From NCBI RefSeq assembly GCF_023022965.1, contig NZ_CP095462.1, positions 3,638,001 to 3,702,000 of the forward strand: a DNA stretch of 64,000 bases. The letters are read 5' to 3'. The notes beneath the pieces are model-generated. The model was not told the origin of the DNA. It saw only the letters and a program-made list of their open reading frames with translations, and searched no databases. Of the stretch, positions 1,844 through 20,170 are shown one piece after another; positions within the stretch are counted from its first letter, which is position 1; the number at the start of each line of letters is the position of its first letter. This stretch comes from Ectobacillus sp. JY-23. GTDB taxonomy: Bacteria > Bacillota > Bacilli > Bacillales > Bacillaceae_G. Both the position numbers and the translations under genes were made by a program.

Positions 1844-3106
1844 ATGATAAGCAATGTATTTAAAAATTACAAATCATCGTTTATTTTGCTGTTTGCAATC
1901 CTGCTTGGAGGAATTATCGGCTATATTGCTGGGCCGAAAGCATCTATCGTTAAACCGCTGGGAGATGTATTCCTTAATCTCATGTTTATGATTATCGTGC
2001 CGCTTGTATTTTTCAGTGTATCGTCGGCCATTGCGAACATGAACGGAATGAAGCGTCTTGGCAAAATTATGTCGAGCACCGCTCTTGTATTTGTTGCGAC
2101 AGCGATCGTTGCTGCGGTTCTTGGCATGTTTGGGGCATCTATTTACAACCCTATTCATAATACGGATGTTTCCGGCATCAAGGAATTGATGGCTGGCACA
2201 CAGCAAGGGGATGAGGACGTTTCGCTCATGAACCAGCTTGTTCTCACGTTTACTGTCTCTGACTTTTCAGATCTGTTTTCTAAATCTCACATTTTACAGC
2301 TCATTATTTTTTCTGTATTGTTTGGCACTGCAACGGCTCTGGCTGGTGAAAAAGGCCGTCCAATTGCGAGCTTTTTGGCTTCTGGGCAAGAGGTAGCTAT
2401 GAAGTTTGTCCACATTGTGATGTACTATGCGCCAATTGGACTGGGCTGTTATTTCGCTTCAGTCGTTGGTGAGCTGGGGCCGCAAATTCTCCAGGGCTAC
2501 GGTAGAGCATTTTTACTGTATCTTGTGATTACGCTTGTATATTACTTCGGCTTTTTTACCTTGTATGCCTGGATTGCTGGTCGAAAAGAAGGCGTGAAAT
2601 TATTTTGGAAGCATGCCGCAGCTCCTTCTATTACGGCAGTTGCGACTTGCTCTTCAGCCGCATCAATTCCGGTCAACCTGGCAGCGACAAAAAAGATGGG
2701 CGTGCCGCAGGATATCGCAGAAACGGTCATCCCATTGGGTGCGAATACACATAAAGACGGTTCCGTTATCGGTGGTATTTTAAAAATCGTATTTTTGTTC
2801 AGCTTATTTGGAAAAGACATGACTTCTTTTACAAGCATCGTCAGCATTCTTGCGGTGGCCTTTTTAGTAGGGGCTGTGATGGGGGCCATTCCAGGGGGCG
2901 GCATGATCGGTGAGATGCTGATTATCTCTATCTACGGATTCTCTCCGGAAGTGCTACCGATTATCGCGGTCATTTCGACCATCATTGATGCGCCTGCAAC
3001 CCTGCTAAACAGCACAGGAAATACAGTCTCAGCCATGCTGGTTACCCGCTTTGTGGAAGGAAAAGATTGGATTAAAAAAGCCGTCACACGTAGTCAGGCG
3101 GCATAA
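1844..3106 (+). CDS. DAACS-family sodium:amino acid symporter under lysine riboswitch control
   Basis: 420 residues with the GltP/DctA glutamate-transporter fold: N-terminal helices, the serine-rich hairpin motif (TCSSAAS, 268-274), the unwound helix-7 motif region (NTHKDGS, 301-307, where classic members read NMDGT) and helix 8. In helix 8 the line is D382-A-P-A385-T386-L-L-N389. The aspartate that holds the substrate amino group and the asparagine are kept, but the arginine that binds acidic side chains in GltPh is alanine. An acidic substrate is therefore unlikely. With the L-box upstream, lysine or a related cationic or neutral amino acid is the best guess. The start has a GGAGGGGG site. 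Confidence 0.88.
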   Translation: MISNVFKNYKSSFILLFAILLGGIIGYIAGPKASIVKPLGDVFLNLMFMIIVPLVFFSVSSAIANMNGMKRLGKIMSSTALVFVATAIVAAVLGMFGASIYNPIHNTDVSGIKELMAGTQQGDEDVSLMNQLVLTFTVSDFSDLFSKSHILQLIIFSVLFGTATALAGEKGRPIASFLASGQEVAMKFVHIVMYYAPIGLGCYFASVVGELGPQILQGYGRAFLLYLVITLVYYFGFFTLYAWIAGRKEGVKLFWKHAAAPSITAVATCSSAASIPVNLAATKKMGVPQDIAETVIPLGANTHKDGSVIGGILKIVFLFSLFGKDMTSFTSIVSILAVAFLVGAVMGAIPGGGMIGEMLIISIYGFSPEVLPIIAVISTIIDAPATLLNSTGNTVSAMLVTRFVEGKDWIKKAVTRSQAA

Positions 3107-3312: not shown

Positions 3313-3334
3313 GCTGACCAGAAAAACTGGAGGC
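3313..3334 (+). promoter_or_regulatory. Antiterminator-like hairpin (copy 0, weaker member of the family)
   Basis: GCT-GA-CCAG-AAAAA-CTGG-A-GGC folds as 3 bp (one T-G wobble), a 2x1 internal loop, 4 bp and a five-base loop. The 3' arm GGC is also the start of the following terminator stem, so the two structures exclude each other. The architecture matches the hairpins at 7591, 8129 and 15061, which have four-base loops. Confidence 0.45.
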
Positions 3335-3376
3335 GGCTTTTTCCTATGTGTAACTAGGTGAAGCCGTCTCTTTTTT
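3330..3376 (+). terminator. Leader terminator (attenuator) in front of threonine synthase
   Basis: GAGGCGGCTT / AAGCCGTCTC with one G-U pair, 21-base loop, then TTTTTT. It ends 30 bases before the start codon and lies downstream of the likely promoter, so it should control readthrough into the gene. Confidence 0.8.
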
Positions 3377-3407: not shown

Positions 3408-4646
3408 ATGAGATATAGCTATGTATCACACTTGCTTTGCCCAACATGCAATACGGAATATAGTACGGCGCACCAGCAACAGCTGTGTGCGTGCGGCTCT
3501 CCGCTACTCGTACAATATGACTTAGAAACGTTAAAGCATAAGCTCTCTCCGCAGGATTTAATAGGAAGAGAAGGAAGTCTGTGGAGATATCATGAATTGC
3601 TGCCGGTTGAGCGTCCGGAGCATGTTGTATCTATGGGAGAAGGTATGACACCCTTGCTTTCGATGCCTAGACTAGGGGCGGATATGGAGATTCGCCAGCT
3701 GTATATGAAAGATGAGGGTGTTATACCGACGGGCACATTTAAAGCACGTGGGGCGGCAGTCGGCGTTTCAAAAGCTAAGGAGCTTGGTGTGAAGGAACTG
3801 GCGATGCCGACAAATGGAAACGCCGGTGCAGCTTGGTCCTTGTATGCCGCGCGAGCAGGTATTAAAGCTACTATTGTTATGCCGACCGATGCACCAAGCA
3901 TTACAAGAAAAGAGTGCGTTGCCGCAGATGCCAACCTGCTGCTTGTAAACGGATTGATTAGTGATGCCGGTAAAATCGTAGGAAAAGCGGTAAAACATGG
4001 GGAGATGTTTGATGCATCTACGCTAAAAGAGCCTTATCGCATAGAAGGCAAAAAAACAATGGGTCTTGAGATTGCAGAACAGCTGCATTGGAAACTGCCT
4101 GATGTCATCTTATATCCTACAGGCGGAGGAGTAGGCCTTATTGGTATCTATAAAGCCTTGCGAGAGCTACAGGAGCTTGGATGGGTAACGGGCAAGCTGC
4201 CTAGATTAGTAGCTGTACAAGCGGAAGGATGCGCCCCAATTGTAAAAGCATGGCAAGAAGGAAAGGCAGTTTCTGCGTTTTGGGAAAGCTCTTCCACGAT
4301 CGCCTTCGGTATTAACGTGCCAAAAGCACTTGGTGATTTTCTTGTGCTAGAAGCGCTGTACGCCACAAATGGATGTGCCGTTGCGGTCAAGGATGACGAA
4401 ATCTTGGCGGAGGTAAGGACAGTGGCGTCACTCGAAGGAACCTTTGTTTGCCCGGAAGGAGCGGCTGTATTTGTTGCGGCTCGTCAATTGAGAAAAGACG
4501 GATGGATTGGACCGGACGAAACAGTAATTGCTTTGAATACCGGGGCAGGAATCAAATACCCTAATACCATTACGGCGGATGTGCCAATTTTACAGCCTGA
4601 TGATGAAATAGATGCTGTATCACGTAAAATGAACATGCGTACTTAA
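3408..4646 (+). CDS. thrC: Threonine synthase
   Basis: PLP enzyme converting O-phosphohomoserine to threonine; 412 residues from the chosen start. An N-terminal zinc-ribbon-like part (C11, C14, C27, C29) is followed by the fold-type II PLP domain with K112 in GTFKARG as the probable Schiff-base lysine. Further motifs are TNGNAGAAW, a phosphate-binding glycine loop (YPTGGGVGLIG) and the C-terminal NTGAGIKYP. A longer frame opens with TTG at 3375, inside the T tract of the leader terminator. I chose ATG 3408 because GGGGG lies 7 bases before it. It stands alone, not in a hom-thrCB operon, and has its own attenuated leader. Confidence 0.92.
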   Translation: MRYSYVSHLLCPTCNTEYSTAHQQQLCACGSPLLVQYDLETLKHKLSPQDLIGREGSLWRYHELLPVERPEHVVSMGEGMTPLLSMPRLGADMEIRQLYMKDEGVIPTGTFKARGAAVGVSKAKELGVKELAMPTNGNAGAAWSLYAARAGIKATIVMPTDAPSITRKECVAADANLLLVNGLISDAGKIVGKAVKHGEMFDASTLKEPYRIEGKKTMGLEIAEQLHWKLPDVILYPTGGGVGLIGIYKALRELQELGWVTGKLPRLVAVQAEGCAPIVKAWQEGKAVSAFWESSSTIAFGINVPKALGDFLVLEALYATNGCAVAVKDDEILAEVRTVASLEGTFVCPEGAAVFVAARQLRKDGWIGPDETVIALNTGAGIKYPNTITADVPILQPDDEIDAVSRKMNMRT

Positions 4647-4659
4647 GCCATAACACATA

Positions 4660-4695
4660 AAAAGGTCCTTAACTGCTCAAGGTTAAGGACCTTTT
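4660..4695. terminator. Bidirectional terminator between convergent genes
   Basis: A perfect 14-bp stem AAAAGGTCCTTAAC / GTTAAGGACCTTTT with T runs on both strands, between threonine synthase and the minus-strand amidohydrolase. Confidence 0.9.
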
Positions 4696-4701
4696 CAGGT
4701 A

Positions 4702-5871
4702 TTATCGGTCTTTACTCATTGTCTGTAATGTATCTATCGCCAATGTAGCAAAGTATTGCGCGCTAAGAGGTAAAGCGCGTTCATCTACCGTAAATGCGGG
4801 ATGGTGCCATTCCTCTGTTCCGGATGTACCCATAAATACGAAGGAGCCAGGAATGTCTTTTTGATAAAAAGCGAAATCCTCTCCTGCCATGGATGGCGTA
4901 GCTTCAACTATGGTCAAACCTGTCTTTTCAGCGGCTTGAACGGCAAGCGTTGTCAGCTGGGCATCGTTTTGTACGGGAGGAGGACCTGCATACCAATGCA
5001 GCTTTGCTTGTGCACCGTATGCATTTGCCGTACCATCCATTACTCGCCGAATCATTGTAGGAATAGTAGCGCGAACTTTTTCATCAAATGTACGAACAGT
5101 ACCTTCTAACATAGCGTTTGCCGGGATAACATTCCAAGTTGTGCCAGCATGTACATTTGCGACACTAATGACCGCGTGCTGGAACGGGCTAAGGTTACGG
5201 CTGACAATAGATTGTAGCGCGATGACAATATGAGAAGCGGCAACAATGGGATCAATACCAGCATCAGGAACTGCTGCGTGAGTGCCCATTCCTTGCACCT
5301 CAATCTCAAATCGATCTACACCAGACATTAAGGCCCCCTGTTTAATACCTATCGTTCCTACCGGTAAATCAGGCTTGTTGTGCATACCGAAAATGGCTTG
5401 CACATCTGTTAATAAACCTGCAGATATTACTTTTTTGGCACCGCCACCATTTTCTTCAGCAGGCTGAAAAATAAATCGTACAGTACCCTTCAATGCATGT
5501 TCTTTTTGTTTCAGCAAGTATGCAGCACCAATCATTGCCGCTGTATGAAAGTCATGACCGCAAGCGTGCATCTTTCCGGGGATTTTAGAAGCGAAAGGTA
5601 AACCACTTTGCTCGTTAACAGGCAAAGCATCAATATCGGCGCGTAAGGCAATGATTGGCCCCTCTGTATCACCCGATATTTCTGCAATGAGCCCTGTTTG
5701 TAATTCTGTTTCCAAAATAGTAATATTCGCCTCCTCTAAACATTGGCGTATATATTTTGTAGTCTCAAATTCCTCGTTGGAAAGTTCGGGATACTGGTGT
5801 AAATGTCGTCGAATAGCTACTAGCTTTTCTTCAAGATTGCTTAAGGTTGTTGTGGGAAGTGGAGCTTTCAT
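4702..5871 (-). CDS. M20D-family amidohydrolase, probable N-acyl-cysteine-derivative deacetylase
   Basis: 389 residues of the M20 dizinc amidohydrolase family (HipO, YxeP, YtnL type). Metal-site motifs: HACGHDFH (C104, H106), PAEE (E139, E140) and FGMHNKPD. The dimerisation lid domain lies roughly at 180-290. A longer frame begins at 5964, but the AAAGGA site points to the ATG at 5871. The neighbours (organosulfur monooxygenases, acetyltransferase, cystine importer) suggest it removes an N-acetyl group from S-alkylated cysteines or sulfoxides, like YtnL in Bacillus subtilis. The substrate is inferred from context. An inverted repeat lies 70 bases upstream. Confidence 0.85.
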   Translation of the reverse strand: MKAPLPTTTLSNLEEKLVAIRRHLHQYPELSNEEFETTKYIRQCLEEANITILETELQTGLIAEISGDTEGPIIALRADIDALPVNEQSGLPFASKIPGKMHACGHDFHTAAMIGAAYLLKQKEHALKGTVRFIFQPAEENGGGAKKVISAGLLTDVQAIFGMHNKPDLPVGTIGIKQGALMSGVDRFEIEVQGMGTHAAVPDAGIDPIVAASHIVIALQSIVSRNLSPFQHAVISVANVHAGTTWNVIPANAMLEGTVRTFDEKVRATIPTMIRRVMDGTANAYGAQAKLHWYAGPPPVQNDAQLTTLAVQAAEKTGLTIVEATPSMAGEDFAFYQKDIPGSFVFMGTSGTEEWHHPAFTVDERALPLSAQYFATLAIDTLQTMSKDR

Positions 5872-7314: not shown

Positions 7315-7419
7315 TTCTTATCAAGAGAGGTGGAGGGACTGGCCCGAAGAAACCTCGGCAAAAGACTTTTAAAGTACTGTGCCAATTCCAGCGGGTCATA
7401 TAACCCGAAAGATAAGAAG
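7315..7419 (+). ncRNA. SAM-I riboswitch (S-box)
   Basis: The core follows the S-box consensus: CTTATCAAGAGAGG, TGGAGGGACTGGCCC, GAAGAAACCTCGGCAA, GTGCCAATTCC, GCGGGT...ACCC and GAAAGATAAG, which closes P1 with the 5' CTTATC. The base 7411-7421 (GATAAGAAGAG) can instead pair with CTCTTCTTATC at 7438-7448 as antiterminator. This is the standard SAM-OFF design. No gene follows immediately; the next start is at 7694, behind a second attenuator. Confidence 0.93.
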
Positions 7420-7475: not shown

Positions 7476-7590
7476 AGCTTCTTCATCAATAACGACACTT
7501 TGTTTGTAAATCTTATATTACCTATAAGTAAAATTGGACATAACTTTTTTGTGAGGTACTATAATAGTTCATATATTGTAGTGAAATGTG

Positions 7591-7611
7591 GCTAACCGGT
7601 CCACCGGAAGC
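7591..7611 (+). promoter_or_regulatory. Antiterminator-like hairpin (copy 1)
   Basis: GCT-AA-CCGG-TCCA-CCGG-A-AGC: 3 bp, 2x1 internal loop, 4 bp, tetraloop. A TATAAT at 7560-7565 would start transcription about 19 bases upstream of it. The 3' AGC is also the first part of the terminator stem at 7609, making the two folds alternatives. The same architecture with different bases recurs at 8129 and 15061. Confidence 0.6.
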
Positions 7612-7653
7612 TCTTGGTATAAAGTAGCGATACTTGTGCTAAGAGCTTTTTTT
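7609..7653 (+). terminator. Leader terminator before the orphan gene
   Basis: AGCTCTT / AAGAGCT with an inner GTAT/ATAC helix, followed by TTTTTTTAT. It lies 40 bases before the start at 7694. Confidence 0.85.
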
Positions 7654-7693
7654 ATATAGGTGAGTAATTATGTAAGAAAGGAGGCAGTTGTGT

Positions 7694-8056
7694 ATGAAGC
7701 GTCGTGCGAATGCATCCGACAGTAAATCACAAACAAAAAAGAGCAACCCTCTTGAGAAAAGTCAATACCTACACCTTCCTGATGTCCACTTTTTTCATTG
7801 GTGTAACCATCGCTATAAGCTGAACAAATCAGTATACAACACAATTGATAAATGGTTTTATAGCAGCGGTGTACATAATATTCTGTATCGCCGTACCTAC
7901 ATTGTGGCCTTCTTGCATTTTGTAAGAGAAACGGAGTCAGAGCCGGAAGAACAAAAATTTGTGCGATTTGGGAATGGAGGGCTGGTAAAAAAACTGATGG
8001 AATTTGAAGCAGGTCTGGCTACAAAAATAAAATTCGGCAACGAATATTTTGAATAA
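7694..8056 (+). CDS. Orphan protein inside the sulfur cluster
   Basis: 120 residues, family not recognised. The ATG has a strong AAGGAGG site at 9-base spacing. The first 20 residues are basic and polar. The middle is rich in aromatic and basic residues (FFHWCNHRYKLNKSVYN) and the end is acidic to mixed. There is no signal peptide or membrane helix. It sits between two attenuated leaders and downstream of the S-box, so it is probably expressed under sulfur control. It could be a small RNA- or DNA-binding regulator, given its charge and position, but that is a guess. Confidence 0.6.
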   Translation: MKRRANASDSKSQTKKSNPLEKSQYLHLPDVHFFHWCNHRYKLNKSVYNTIDKWFYSSGVHNILYRRTYIVAFLHFVRETESEPEEQKFVRFGNGGLVKKLMEFEAGLATKIKFGNEYFE

Positions 8057-8128
8057 TTCGCTTCAAATTAGCCTAAAATCATAGTTTACAGATGTGTTTA
8101 GTTAGTTTTAGGGTTTGAGAATAATAAA

Positions 8129-8149
8129 GCCGATTGGACCACCAAAGGC
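8129..8149 (+). promoter_or_regulatory. Antiterminator-like hairpin (copy 2)
   Basis: GCC-GA-TTGG-ACCA-CCAA-A-GGC. It has the same fold as the copy at 7591, with compensating changes at the outer pair and two inner pairs. The 3' GGC is shared with the terminator stem that follows. Confidence 0.6.
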
Positions 8150-8175
8150 TCCTGTATATGACAGGGGCCTTATTG
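8145..8175 (+). terminator. Leader terminator before the FMN reductase
   Basis: AAGGCTCCTGT / ACAGGGGCCTT, loop ATATG, followed by a weaker TTATTGTGTT tract. The start codon of the next gene is 25 bases downstream. Confidence 0.7.
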
Positions 8176-8199
8176 TGTTCAAATGTGAGGAGGAGAACG

Positions 8200-8739
8200 A
8201 TGACAAACATTATATTGATTTCTGGAGGCGTTTCAAATAACTCTAGAACATCTCAGGTCATTCACTATGTTGCTACTTTGATTCAAGCGCAGGGAAGAAG
8301 CACCAAAAGCTTTGCAATACGTGATTTTGAAGCAGAGGACTTAATCTATGGAAATTTTCAAAGCCCCCAAGTTACAGAGCTTATCAAACACATTGAAGAA
8401 GCCAGTGCGATTGTAATTGCAACTCCCATTTATAAAGGATCCTACACAGGGGCTTTGAAAACGGTTCTTGATTTGCTGCCATCCAATATCTTAAGAGGCA
8501 AGGTTGTTCTCCCCATTGTTGTAGGAGGTACAGCAAAGCATGTATTGAGTCTTGAATTCAGTCTTAAGCCTTTACTTAGTATTCTGGGATCTGAACAAAT
8601 TCTTTCGGGTGTTTTCGTTTTAGATTCTTATGTGCTAGAAAATCAGGTGACTGACGATGATACAGCTAAACGACTTAGCAACTCTGTCGAAAAGCTATTG
8701 GCTGAGCGAAATGTCACATCTGGTGAAGCAAGAAGGTGA
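8200..8739 (+). CDS. NAD(P)H-dependent FMN reductase (SsuE family)
   Basis: 179-residue flavodoxin-like protein. LISGGVSNNSRTSQV at the N-terminus is the FMN-phosphate loop, IVIATPIYKGSYTGALKTVLDLL is the isoalloxazine-side motif, and VLPIVVGGT follows. This family supplies reduced FMN to two-component monooxygenases, here the products at 8800 and 6015. A longer frame opens at 8134, within the terminator, but GAGGAGG sits just before ATG 8200. First gene of the plus-strand organosulfur operon. Confidence 0.88.
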   Translation: MTNIILISGGVSNNSRTSQVIHYVATLIQAQGRSTKSFAIRDFEAEDLIYGNFQSPQVTELIKHIEEASAIVIATPIYKGSYTGALKTVLDLLPSNILRGKVVLPIVVGGTAKHVLSLEFSLKPLLSILGSEQILSGVFVLDSYVLENQVTDDDTAKRLSNSVEKLLAERNVTSGEARR

Positions 8740-8799: not shown

Positions 8800-10143
8800 G
8801 TGGTAAGTAAACGAAAACTTAAATTGGGAACAATGCTTCATGGACCAGGAGGACATATAGCCGCATGGCGACATCCAAATGCTGTAGCGGATGCAAGTGT
8901 AAATTTCGCATTCTATAAACAACTCGTAGAAAAAGCTGAATCAGGAAAATTTGACTTGGCCTTTGTAGCTGATGGCTTATATATCACTGAGAAATCGCAT
9001 CCAAACTTTTTAAACCGTTTTGAGCCGATCACGTTATTGGCCGCTTTGGCGGGAGCAAGCTCTCATATAGGGTTAGTGGGCACTCTTTCTACTTCCTATA
9101 GTGAGCCTTATACGGTCGCAAGGCAATTTGCTTCCATCGATAAGATTAGCAAGGGCCGAGCAGGGTGGAATGCAGTCACCTCTCCTTTGGAGGGATCAGC
9201 TTTGAACTATAGTAAGGATAAGCATCCTGCACATGAACTTCGCTATGAAATTGCAGAAGAGTTCATTGAAGTGACAAAAGGATTATGGGATTCGTGGGAG
9301 GATGATGCTTTTATTCGAGATAAAGATAAAGGGATTTTCATTGATTCAAAAAAAATGCATCGATTAAATCATAAAGGAAAGTTTTTTTCCATTCAAGGAC
9401 CACTGAATATTGCCAGGTCTGAGCAAGGGCACCCCGTCGTTTTTCAAGCTGGTTCTTCAGAAGCTGGCAAAGAGCTAGCAGCAAAGCAAGCGGATGCCGT
9501 ATTTACAGGTCATGACAATATAGAAGAAGCGAAGCGTTTTTATCAGGATGTGAAAAGTAGAGCAATCTCTTATGGAAGAGCCGCCACAGATATTCTTATT
9601 TTTCCAGGAATCAGTCCTATCGTAGGAAGAACGGAAGAGGAGGCGGACCGAAAGTATCAAGAGATTGCTAGTTTAGTAGATATTCATATAGCTCTGGACT
9701 ATTTGGGACGCTTTTTCGATCACTTTGATTTTTCTCGATATCCACTGGATGAAGCGTTCCCTGACTTGGGGGATTTAGGAAGTCAAGGGTTTCAGAGTAC
9801 CACAGAAAAAATCAAGCGGATGGCCAAAGAAGAAGATTTAACCCTACGTGAAGTTGCTTTACGAGTCACCACGCCAAAGAAAGAGTTTATAGGTACACCG
9901 CTTCAAATTGCGGATGCAGTGCAAAGGTGGTTTGAAGAAGAAGCTGCTGATGGTTTTATGATTGCGAGTGCGGTGTTCCCTGATGGTTTGAATGATTTTG
10001 TGGATTATGTGGTTCCTATTTTGCAAGAACGCGGTTTATTCAGAACGGAATACGAACATGATACGCTACGAGGAAACTTGGGACTAAAGAAGCCTGTAAA
10101 TCGCTATACACGGCAAAGGGAAGAAAGTAAGATCAACAGCTGA
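8800..10143 (+). CDS. ytnJ: FMN-dependent monooxygenase, NtaA/SnaA/YtnJ type
   Basis: 447 residues of the NtaA/SnaA/DszA class of luciferase-like monooxygenases. Typical stretches are [22 protein letters not shown]-type [37 protein letters not shown] and [12 protein letters not shown]. The B. subtilis homologue in the ytmI operon catalyses oxidative S-dealkylation of N-acetylated S-alkyl cysteines. It starts with GTG 8800 behind AAGGAGG. It is preceded by its likely FMN reductase and followed by an acetyltransferase, which completes an acetylate, oxidise, deacetylate pathway with the amidohydrolase at 4702. Confidence 0.88.
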
Positions 10144-15006: not shown

Positions 15007-15035
15007 TTGACAGATAGGAAAAGTAGAAATAAAAT
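15007..15035 (+). promoter_or_regulatory. Promoter of the sulfate transport operon
   Basis: TTGACA, 17-bp spacer, TAAAAT. Transcription would begin near 15042, about 19 bases before the antiterminator-like hairpin. Confidence 0.75.
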
Positions 15036-15060: not shown

Positions 15061-15081
15061 GCCGATCAGTTGACTGAAGGC
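15061..15081 (+). promoter_or_regulatory. Antiterminator-like hairpin (copy 3)
   Basis: GCC-GA-TCAG-TTGA-CTGA-A-GGC. The layout is identical to copies 1 and 2, with yet another inner helix, all paired. The 3' arm overlaps the terminator stem that starts at 15077. Confidence 0.6.
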
Positions 15082-15122
15082 ATACAGCATCCATTTTATG
15101 GATTGTTGTATGCCTTTTTTAT
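15077..15122 (+). terminator. Leader terminator of the sulfate operon
   Basis: AAGGCATACAGCATCC pairs with GGATTGTTGTATGCCTT (small bulge), then TTTTTTAT, 22 bases before the start codon. It is downstream of the promoter at 15007, so it acts as an attenuator. Confidence 0.85.
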
Positions 15123-15144
15123 ATTGAAAAAAGGAGAGATGAAA

Positions 15145-16206
15145 ATGCTGCGTAACAAAATGCTGTTCAGAAATGCTCTTGCTGTGATTTCGACTGTTAC
15201 TTTATTGTCAGCTTGCTCAAATTCGACGGGAGGTACAGAAAGCGTAAGTGACAAAGCGCCTGAGGAGCCTAAGGCTGTAGAGCTGCTAAATGTTTCATAT
15301 GATCCTACGCGCGAGCTGTATCAGGACTTTAACACAGAGTTCGCTCAGTACTGGAAGGAGAAGTCTGGGCAAACAGTTACCATCAAGCAGTCTCATGGCG
15401 GCTCTGGTAAGCAAGCTCGCTCTGTTATTGATGGCTTAGAAGCTGATGTGGTCACGTTAGCACTTGCCTATGACATTGATGAAATCAGTCAACAAGGAAA
15501 GCTGTTAACACCTGAATGGCAAAAAAGCTTACCTAACAATTCTACACCCTACACATCCACGATTGTATTTTTAGTGCGCAAGGGGAACCCAAAGCAAATT
15601 AAGGATTGGAACGATCTTGCTAAAAAAGGGGTCTCTGTCATTACGCCAAACCCGAAAACCTCTGGAGGTGCTCGCTGGAATTACTTGGCGGCTTGGGGAT
15701 ATGCTCTGAAAAACAACGGCAACAACGAAGCGAAGGCAAAGGAGTTTGTGGGCAATATTTATAAAAATGTCGAGGTGCTTGATTCGGGAGCGCGGGGTGC
15801 CACGACGACTTTTGTAGAAAGAGGCATTGGCGATGTATTAATATCATGGGAAAACGAGGCCTTGCTGTCATTGCACGAGCTTGGCAAGGATAAGTTTGAT
15901 ATTGTCGTTCCGTCTGTCAGTATTTTGGCTGAACCGCCTGTAGCTGTTGTGGATAAAGTAGCCGAGAAAAAGGGAACAACAAAGGTTGCAAAAGCTTACT
16001 TAGAGTACCTATATACAGACAAAGGGCAAGAAATTGCAGCAAAGCATTATTATCGCCCTCGCAATGAAAAAGTAGCCCAAAAATATGAATCTCAATTCCC
16101 TAAAATTGAATTGTTTACAGTGGATGAACTGTTTGGCGGCTGGAAAAAAGCACAGGACACCCACTTTAAGGATGGCGGTGTATTCGATCAAATTTATCAG
16201 AAATAA
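15145..16206 (+). CDS. Sulfate/thiosulfate-binding lipoprotein
   Basis: 353 residues from ATG 15145, chosen because AAGGAG lies 8 bases upstream; a longer frame begins in the promoter at 15007. The signal peptide ends TLLSAC, a lipobox. The mature protein belongs to the Sbp/CysP family: [59 protein letters not shown]. It captures sulfate for CysT/CysW/CysA, which follow in order. Confidence 0.9.
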
Positions 16207-17958: not shown

Positions 17959-19032
17959 ATGATGATTGAGATTCAGCATCTATCAAAGCATTATGGTTCG
18001 TTTCATGTCCTGCAGGATATCAATCTTACCATTCAAGAGGGAGAGCTTGTTGCGCTATTAGGCCCGTCCGGCTCGGGAAAGACAACGCTGCTGCGTGTAA
18101 TTGCAGGACTGGAAATAGCAGATGAGGGCATCGTTGTATGTAATGGAGAAGACTTGACTCACGTGCATGTACAAGATCGGCAAGTTGGCTTTGTATTTCA
18201 GCATTATGCACTATTTAAACATATGACGGTGTTTGAGAACGTAGCGTTTGGGCTGAAAGCGCGTAAAAAGAAATGGAGACCTTCACCGGTAGAAATAAAA
18301 GAGAAAGTACAAACGTTGCTTGAACTAGTTAAGATGCAGGAGTTTTCCAGCAGATATCCGTCTCAGCTTTCTGGCGGGCAAAGGCAGCGCATTGCCTTGG
18401 CACGTGCCTTGGCGGTCGAACCAAAAATTTTGCTTTTAGATGAACCCTTTGGCGCTTTGGATGCGAAAGTTCGTAAAGAGCTAAGAAGGTGGTTAAGAAG
18501 ATTACATGATGAATTTAAAATTACGAGTATATTTGTCACACATGATCAAGAGGAAGCTCTTGATGTAGCAGATCGAATTGTGATTATGAACCAGGGAAAA
18601 ATTGAGCAAATCGGTACACCGCAAGACATATACGAACAACCTGCCAGTTCATTTGTATACGACTTCCTCGGAAACGTAAACTTGTTTCACGGGCGTCTTA
18701 GAGAAGGGAAGCTAGATATTGGTGCAGCACAGTTTAGCGTAGCAGATGACCATCATCCGTTTGACATAGAAACGGTAGGCTATGTGCGGCCGCATCACCT
18801 TATGATTTCACGGCAAAAAACCGAACAAGACACTATTACCGCAAGGATATCACACCTCCACACAGTCGGGCCGATTGTACATGTGGAATTAAAAAGGGAA
18901 GAAACACAAGAATACTTAGAAGCACAAATGAGTGTAGAGCAATTTCATGCGTTACAGCTGCGTATAGGAGAAACAGTGTATGTCTCACCCCAGCAAGTAA
19001 AAGTCTTTATCCCTTCAGATTTTGTAATCTAA
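17959..19032 (+). CDS. cysA: Sulfate ABC transporter ATP-binding protein
   Basis: 357 residues: Walker [11 protein letters not shown]-loop FQHYALF, signature LSGGQRQR, Walker [13 protein letters not shown], switch VTHDQEEA, and then a C-terminal regulatory domain with VGYVRPHHL, typical of CysA. The start ATG follows AGGAGGAG. It is the last gene of the sulfate operon and is followed by a terminator and the 53-bp repeat array. Confidence 0.92.
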
Positions 19033-19042
19033 TACGTATATG

Positions 19043-19072
19043 CAGCCATCGGTTTACATCCGGTGGCTTTCG
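19043..19072 (+). terminator. Terminator of the sulfate operon
   Basis: AGCCATCGG / CCGGTGGCT with one wobble, loop TTTACAT, then TTTCGTT. Confidence 0.7.
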
Positions 19073-19082
19073 TTGATATATG

Positions 19083-20170
19083 GGGGATGGAATTTGAGAG
19101 TAGGTGTCCCGCAAGAGCGTCTCGCGGAGCAGGAGAGAGGGGAAATTTGAGAGTAGGTGTCCCGCGAGAGCGTCTCGCGGAGCAGGAGAGGGAGGGAATT
19201 TGAGTTTAGGTGATCCGCAAGAGGGTTTCGTGGAGCACGAGAGAGAGGAAATTTGAGAGTAGGTGTCCCGCAAGAGCGTCTCGCGGAGCACGAGAGGGAG
19301 GGGATTTGAGAGTAGGTGTCCCGCAAGAGCGTGTTGCGGAGCACGAGAGGGAGGGAATCTGAGAGTAGGTGTCCCGCAAGAGGGTCTCGCGGAGCACGAG
19401 AGGGAGGGAATTTGAGATTAGGTGTCCCGCGAGAGCGTGTTGCGGAGCACGAGAGAGAGGGAATTTGAGTTTAGGTGTCCCGGGAGAGCATCTCGCGGAG
19501 CAGGAGAGGGAGGGAATTTGAGTTTAGGTGTCCCGCGAGAGCGTTTCGCGGAGCAGGAGAGAGGGGAAATTTGAGAGTAGGTGTCCCGCGAGAGCGTCTC
19601 GCGGAGCAGGAGAGGGAGGGAATTTGAGTTTAGGTGATCCGCAAGAGGGTTTCGTGGAGCACGAGAGAGAGGAAATTTGAGAGTAGGTGTCCCGCAAGAG
19701 CGTCTCGCGGAGCACGAGAGGGAGGGGATTTGAGAGTAGGTGTCCCGCAAGAGGGTTTCGTGAACCACGAGAGAGAGGAGATTGGAGTTTAGGTGTCCCG
19801 GGAGAGCATCTCGCGGAGCACGAGAGAGAGGGAATTTGAGTTTAGGTGTCCCGCGAGAGCGTCTCGCGGAGCACGAGAGAGAGGGAATTTGAGTTTAGGT
19901 GTCCCGGGAGAGCATCTCGCGGAGCAGGAGAGGGAGGGAATTTGAGTTTAGGTGTCCCGCGAGAGCGTTTCGCGGAGCAGGAGAGGGAGGGAATTTGAGT
20001 TTAGGTGTCCCGCGAGAGCGTCTCGCGGAGCACGAGAGGGAGGGGATTTGAGAGTAGGTGTCCCGCAAGAGCGTGTTGCGGAGCACGAGAGAGAGGGGAT
20101 TTGAGTTTAGGTGTCCCGGGAGAGCGTCTCGCGGAGCACGAGAGAGAAAACCTGAGTTTAGGTGCCTCGC
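19083..20170. repeat. Tandem array of 53-bp hairpin-forming units (21 units)
   Basis: The landmark GGTGTCCCG (or GGTGATCCG) occurs at 19103 and then every 53 bases without exception to 20110, with a degraded last copy at 20161. Each unit has a palindrome, in its best form CCGCGAGAGCGTCTCGCGG, followed by AGCACGAGAGGGAGGGA and TTTGAGTTTAGGTG. Four units (19103-19314) recur 424 bp (8 units) later. Because 53 is not a multiple of 3, the open frames across it (LLRDTYSQIPSLSCSARRS and similar) drift between frames and are not genes. Units also occur singly near 39664 and 44254. Confidence 0.95.

Follow-up and report, generated by a model that had tools for sequence, protein, structure and literature searches.

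A Compact Hairpin Overlapping Terminators Ahead of Sulfur-Scavenging Genes in Bacilli and Its Candidate Partner Proteins

Many soil bacilli carry, ahead of their sulfur-scavenging genes, a short RNA hairpin that is very probably an on-switch, as judged from the comparison of genome sequences; the foremost candidate for the protein operating this switch is DUF2292 (OscA/YezD). The hairpin is described here in a window of Ectobacillus sp. JY-23, the whole 64 kb stretch of DNA that was analyzed, and in leaders from other genomes.

Hairpin Copies and Leaders in the Window

Three copies of one fold had been listed in an earlier note on this DNA, and their sequences read as given there: GCT-AA-CCGG-TCCA-CCGG-A-AGC at 7591–7611 (copy 1), GCC-GA-TTGG-ACCA-CCAA-A-GGC at 8129–8149 (copy 2), and GCC-GA-TCAG-TTGA-CTGA-A-GGC at 15061–15081 (copy 3), all on the plus strand. 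The 64 kb were scanned on both strands for the hairpin architecture (3 bp, RA, 4 bp, a four-base loop, and then 4, A, and 3) with a terminator starting in the 3′ arm, and exactly 7591, 8129, and 15061 were returned. The same scan of 40 first-order Markov windows gave a mean of 0.225 matches and a maximum of 2, none with GC...GC ends. The covariance model R1 was built from 52 leaders, all from genomes other than that of the window, although one training row (L225, sister species) is nearly identical to copy 3. Copies 1, 2, and 3 score 47.3 bits (E 3e-11, over 7591–7653), 51.7 bits (E 1.9e-12), and 47.0 bits (E 3.6e-11) with this model. A fourth copy, overlooked in the earlier inventory and outside the result of the four-base-loop scan, first surfaced through R1 (34.2 bits, E 1.3e-7) at 3313–3334 of the plus strand, where GCT-GA-CCAG-AAAAA-CTGG-A-GGC carries a five-base loop. 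Another R1 match of 23.5 bits at 4658–4709 on the minus strand is taken for a plain terminator.

The 3′ arm of the hairpin is the start of a rho-independent terminator in all three of the listed copies, and hairpin and terminator exclude each other, as had been claimed. These terminators extend over 7608–7653, 8145–8175, and 15078–15120 of the plus strand, and T-rich sequence follows each stem begun by the hairpin 3′ arm. For copy 1, the 5′ arm of the terminator opens with the 3′ arm of the hairpin, and the minimum-energy fold of the leader (−27.0 kcal/mol) is the terminator fold. The terminator of copy 4 (3330–3374, plus strand) also overlaps its hairpin. The −10 elements proposed earlier fit copies 1 and 3: TATAAT is found at 7560–7565 of the plus strand, and a plus-strand promoter at 15007–15035 combines TTGACA at 15007 with TAAAAT at 15030 at a spacing of 17 bases. 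The distance from the TATAAT-like box to the hairpin varies among 140 leaders.

The genes downstream in the window, all on the plus strand, include sulfur genes, as had been claimed. Copy 2 is presumed to control an SsuE-type NADPH-dependent FMN reductase at 8200–8739 (TIGR03567, 183.7 bits, above cut-off), which is perhaps in an operon with an NtaA/DmoA-family FMN monooxygenase at 8800–10143 (TIGR03860, 559.3 bits). Behind copy 3 lies the gene of a sulfate-binding protein of the Sbp type at 15139–16206 (start at 15139 or 15145; TIGR00971, 520.9 bits), and behind copy 4 that of a threonine-synthase family enzyme at 3408–4646 (NF006050, 654.2 bits). Copies 1 and 2 are placed as the earlier note had them; the gene of 119 codons between them, at 7697–8056 of the plus strand, had been overlooked as a regulator candidate. 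Behind the sulfate transporter operon, at about 19007–19768, the unit 'RDTYSQIPSLSCS...' recurs in minus-strand ORFs, pointing to a tandem repeat.

The whole window was compared with the Rfam 15 models, and only a lysine riboswitch at 1463–1645 and a SAM riboswitch (S-box) at 7315–7418 match, with none at the hairpins. The lysine riboswitch (118.3 bits) precedes a membrane transporter-like ORF at 1844–3106. A permissive Rfam search of 7540–8200 gave four matches, all under their own cut-offs, and in a check of nine loci only SAM riboswitches beside the hairpins of L258 and L406 scored above cut-off. The view that the hairpin is not a T-box, S-box, L-box, or PyrR site agrees with these searches. 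The S-box resembles the hairpin in attenuating transcription of sulfur genes, but it is another RNA, and R1 and the SAM model match different places. The S-box at 7315–7418 is separate from and upstream of hairpin 1, so that the two stand in tandem, and an S-box likewise lies just before the hairpin in L406. Such tandems, the conserved internal loop, the restricted loop length, and the sulfur genes downstream would suit a miniature riboswitch with a small sulfur metabolite as its direct ligand. That reading is nevertheless highly improbable for a hairpin of only 7 bp with a GA/A internal loop and a variable loop, which is, to our knowledge, smaller than the smallest known aptamers.

Conservation of the Hairpin and Its Competition with the Terminator

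All of the loci fetched together yielded 220 distinct leaders (≤85 nt) with 133 distinct hairpin sequences, every leader having been chosen for the presence of both hairpin and terminator. The element is a hairpin of 21 or 22 nt with 3 bp, GA or AA opposite one A, 4 bp, and a loop of 4 or 5 bases, and its consensus is GCY-GA-YYRG-(4/5)-CYRR-A-RGC. The loop has four bases in 181 of the 220 leaders and five in 39; among hairpins with GC...GC ends, no loop of 3, 6, or 7 was seen. Conservation of the internal-loop A's and of the loop-closing G-C is not independent, as these were imposed by the scans or the pattern. The base before the first internal-loop A is G in 133 of 140 leaders and otherwise A, the scan having permitted G or A. 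Variant hairpin ends (ACC/GGT, GTC/GAC, and GGT/ACC) were also seen.

Base pairing was assessed with a pattern that is blind to it. All three variable inner pairs are Watson–Crick in 52 of 84 distinct sequences among the matches listed, and 2000 re-pairings of those 84 gave a mean of 15.3 and a maximum of 27 that are fully Watson–Crick. Among the matches listed, 67 doubly changed cells were counted versus 32.0 after shuffling, and the covariation score is 0.387 versus 0.279; each value was reached in 0 of 500 shuffles. The earlier statement that pairing is kept at every position holds for the three copies; across the wider unselected set, again among the matches listed, the variable outer pair 3–19 is at chance (39 Watson–Crick versus 40.6 expected). 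The hairpin and terminator stems both covary in the 52-leader alignment (A5), the rows of which were preselected for both stems. By the test that is blind to pairing, the hairpin holds as a conserved RNA family with its pairing kept.

Overlapping terminators were sought with the same rule at three kinds of site, a comparison that does not presuppose pairing. They are present in 160 of 194 distinct paired pattern matches with enough sequence, in 4 of 23 unpaired pattern matches, and at 206 of 4000 random GGC sites. For the 220 leaders, the mean energies are −6.0 kcal/mol for the hairpin alone and −20.0 kcal/mol for the terminator. The 3′ arm of the hairpin sits in the terminator in the minimum-energy fold of 217 of these leaders, which had been selected for both structures. 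The predicted folds show that hairpin and terminator are two competing, mutually exclusive structures, the terminator being much the stronger. A few hairpins that precede DUF2292 genes are without a terminator (L255, L392, and L406). In L255 (290–567), inspection by eye suggests a translational variant, since the hairpin before DUF2292 would exclude a stem that holds the start codon.

The mechanism toward which we lean is that of a cis-acting RNA antiterminator of a sulfur-limitation regulon. By default, the leader would fold as the stronger terminator and transcription would stop. When sulfur is limiting, a protein would bind the hairpin and hold it co-transcriptionally, terminator formation would be blocked, and RNA polymerase would read into the operon. 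The likeliest such protein would be DUF2292, which is often encoded adjoining a copy of the hairpin; where it is present, the C-terminal domain of RibR (RibR-C, here the 119-aa gene product at 7697) would be a second binder or a modulator.

Genes behind the Hairpin and Comparison with Known Systems

The genes behind 90 distinct leaders were assigned by the nearest blastp match to 21 representatives, so that the class of SsuB-type ATPases may include other ABC ATPases. This tally contains only pattern-fetched loci, although which of the listed matches to fetch was chosen. Genes matching representatives such as SsuB, Sbp, SsuE, SsuD, TauE, CysH, and DUF2292 follow 73 of the 90 leaders. The classes are SsuB-type ATPase (18), Sbp (13), SenS/FbpB-like (9), DUF2292 (7), SsuE (5), SsuD (4), TauE (4), CysH (3), NMT1-type binding protein (3), alpha/beta hydrolase (2), FbpA-like (2), and acyl-CoA-dehydrogenase-like, LysR, and LLM monooxygenase (1 each). 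Behind the other 17, inspection by eye found LLM monooxygenases, TauD-like and methionine-synthase-like proteins, an Rrf2/CymR-like regulator, and in a few cases no clear gene. The earlier note had staked its proposal on the hairpin not being missing from relatives, and in many genomes it does recur upstream of sulfur genes, orthologous ones and others.

Hairpin–terminator leaders are found upstream of RibR-C genes as well as sulfur genes in many loci. In a tally of 225 leaders (195 classified), the nearest recognized gene is DUF2292 in 16 and RibR-C in 17, numbers that are inflated for both since many loci were fetched for these proteins or for the pattern. In L244 and L331, a hairpin–terminator is followed some 700–900 bases later by a FabH-like ORF, and the interval contains no obvious sulfur gene. 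Similar uncharacterized proteins of 96–98 aa, without a Pfam match, are encoded directly behind the hairpin in L247 and L248, and in L248 a flavodoxin-like ORF follows.

Genome G427, which we take to be Bacillus subtilis 168, carries two copies of the hairpin, one before an SsuB-type ATPase and one before a 72-aa FbpB-like protein (NCBIfam FbpB, 29.9 bits, below the cut-off of 60). The two leaders of this genome are located at 959239 and 961295. A third pattern match in this genome has one position unpaired and was set aside as chance. The gene context of the two copies agrees with that of the sulfonate attenuator of Naville and Gautheret (2010), and the leader reported there may be the same element. 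In section 14 of that paper (PMC2965389), the attenuator is given one sentence, and no protein candidate or wider regulon is named there. The existence of the element was thus probably glimpsed in 2010. No prior description of the structure class, its breadth, or its link to DUF2292 or RibR-C was found in the excerpts of the literature searched.

A close mechanistic parallel is RAT, a short imperfect hairpin with asymmetric internal loops that overlaps a terminator and is read by a protein of the BglG/SacY/LicT type. A small hairpin overlapping a terminator is present here as well, as the paired and unpaired pattern matches given above indicate. The hairpin here is, however, shorter (21/22 nt, one internal loop), has another consensus, and precedes sulfur genes rather than sugar PTS genes. 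The candidate proteins differ too, in that neither matches an antiterminator Pfam model. The 119-aa protein and six of its homologues match no Pfam family at E ≤ 1 and hence no CAT/PRD antiterminator model, and the small proteins linked to hairpins match PF10055.

Candidate Partner Proteins

A protein is favored as the partner of the hairpin, and the two candidates are DUF2292/OscA and RibR-C. The 119-aa protein encoded between hairpins 1 and 2 has no Pfam or NCBIfam match at E ≤ 1 and is predicted by AlphaFold as a small helical domain (mean pLDDT 82.7). Homologues were found in 5 of 60 genomes (its own included), in 40 of 397 genomes of the order, and in 11 of 44 of the genus of G154. With the pattern YNTIDxWF, relatives were found encoded in 100 stretches, of which the best 80 were used further; a flavokinase motif is present in the same ORF or ≤1.5 kb upstream in 22 of these best 80 of 100. 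Flavokinase and domain are fused in one ORF in L066, L109, G351, G180, G205, and G293, and the Pfam flavokinase occupies residues 37–153 of the 264-aa ORF of L066. An alignment search returned 236-aa ORFs with the flavokinase motif and this domain in G427, G402, and G407, that of G427 presumably being RibR. The 119-aa protein is, by this alignment, homologous to the part of RibR that follows the flavokinase and is a candidate RNA-binding protein. Unlike in RibR, the domain here has no flavokinase attached and follows a hairpin leader of its own.

The second candidate was recognized in four small proteins encoded behind hairpins (L233, L255, L003, and L070), which match PF10055 (DUF2292) at 49.9–65.6 bits with a cut-off of 22. 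The candidate thus belongs to the same Pfam family as OscA/YezD, annotated in the excerpt of PMC10433965 as a sulfur starvation response protein; the Pfam entry itself lists an uncharacterized small protein. The DUF2292 protein of L318 matches the NCBIfam model 'sulfur starvation response protein OscA' with an E of 3.8e-10 and 39.6 bits, below the cut-off of 85. DUF2292 proteins are short and mildly basic (mean net charge +1.9), and the predicted helix and beta-hairpin gave no significant match among solved structures. No link of DUF2292 to an RNA hairpin was found in the excerpts of the literature searched.

DUF2292 was found in 190 of the 397 genomes of the order sample and in 124 of 309 genomes, and the hairpin pattern in 171 of the 397; the genome-wide pattern covers four-base loops only, and some of its matches are not real hairpins. 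All 35 order-sample genomes with at least three pattern matches carry DUF2292, versus 190 of 397 overall. The mean number of matches per genome is 3.54 with both proteins (n = 35), 0.95 with DUF2292 only (n = 155), 0.40 with RibR-C only (n = 5), and 0.24 with neither (n = 202). In the class sample without that order (281 genomes), DUF2292 is present in 94 of 122 genomes with a match and in 16 of 159 without. Four class-sample genomes (G479, G573, G583, and G602) have at least three matches and no DUF2292; none of the three sites of G479 is fully paired. Within 30 genera of mixed state, DUF2292 is found in 62 of 102 genomes with the pattern versus 15 of 67 without, and 0 of 20,000 within-genus permutations were as extreme; the share is higher in 22 of these genera, lower in 3, and tied in 5.

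Proximity was also examined. Among the matches listed, 40 of 150 sites lie ≤2.5 kb from a DUF2292 gene on the same strand and 0 on the opposite strand, and this proximity is spread over 34 of the 52 DUF2292 genomes with listed sites. A hairpin with terminator is present at 25 of 39 DUF2292 loci, which are the best-scoring ones and not a random sample; in most of the 25 it closely follows the gene, and a CysH-like ORF often comes after it. The scan found no hairpin at the other 14 of these loci or at three plasmid DUF2292 loci, including a YezD gene before a PAPS reductase gene. Neither of two control sets, 30 FMN-riboswitch loci and 30 loose-pattern loci from the window's own genome, contained a hairpin with terminator, and Markov copies of the locus sets gave 0.1 matches per set. 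In G154, G127, and G292, the DUF2292 gene lies directly before the RibR-C gene.

Further copies were seen in the genome of the window (G000; fetched as loci L223 and L417). One at G000:C1:3234965-3234985 on the minus strand precedes an alpha/beta-hydrolase gene, with a DUF2292 gene about 1.2 kb on; a copy at about 3235198 on the divergent plus strand has a five-base loop, and a copy at about 707117 on the minus strand lies beside a second DUF2292 gene.

According to the excerpts of PMC9863419, no protein of known function resembles the RibR C-terminus, and ribR is generally silent. Excerpts of PMC7693651 describe RibR as an RNA-binding protein, place its gene in a sulfur operon, and report induction of ribR with methionine or taurine and repression with MgSO4. 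RNA binding and induction of this kind would suit RibR-C as the principal hairpin binder and as a regulator of its own gene, with DUF2292 only a member of the regulon. The basic character of the domain (mean net charge +4.3), its place as nearest gene in the 225-leader tally, for which loci were partly fetched with RibR-C, and the 3.5 matches per genome with both proteins versus 0.95 with DUF2292 alone point the same way. We nevertheless regard this arrangement as unlikely. A RibR-C match is absent in 135 of the 171 pattern-bearing genomes of the order sample, and RibR-C alone therefore cannot be the hairpin protein. These genomes include the sister species G001, which has the same sbp leader, and, from genus g2, 11 pattern-bearing genomes among the 12 sampled, RibR-C being found in none of the 12. 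The five genomes with RibR-C and without DUF2292 average only 0.4 matches each, and the reported target of RibR is the FMN riboswitch, no such hairpin being found in 30 FMN riboswitch loci.

The persistence of hairpins without RibR-C could also mean that a third, widespread protein or complex binds them and that DUF2292 and RibR-C are controlled genes or accessories. At least one genome (G311), with no match to either protein, has a convincing hairpin–terminator before a gene that is TauD-like by eye, and the co-occurrence of DUF2292 could mirror a shared sulfur-scavenging lifestyle. Such a third binder is improbable in our estimate, as the within-genus association and the close same-strand adjacency of DUF2292 in several families and orders exceed what we would expect of an ordinary regulon gene. 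DUF2292 itself could be a member of the regulon and not its regulator, which adjacency and co-occurrence cannot distinguish. With DUF2292 as the preferred partner, a wider and more tentative proposal may be made from the genome comparisons: DUF2292 might constitute a new family of tiny RNA-binding antiterminators for the sulfur-starvation regulon (sulfate uptake, cysH, sulfonate, and sulfite genes) across Bacilli, with RibR-C as a second reader of the same hairpin that links it to flavin supply.

If this is true, bacilli would possess, in addition to CymR and the S-box, a global sulfur switch that acts after transcription initiation, and the leaders at ssu and other sulfur operons would be explained. 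DUF2292/OscA, a family whose sole annotation is that of a sulfur-starvation protein, would receive its first molecular function and would join the known kinds of antiterminator such as BglG/SacY and HutP. The C-terminal domain of RibR, itself unexplained, can also be probed with the hairpin as a defined RNA.
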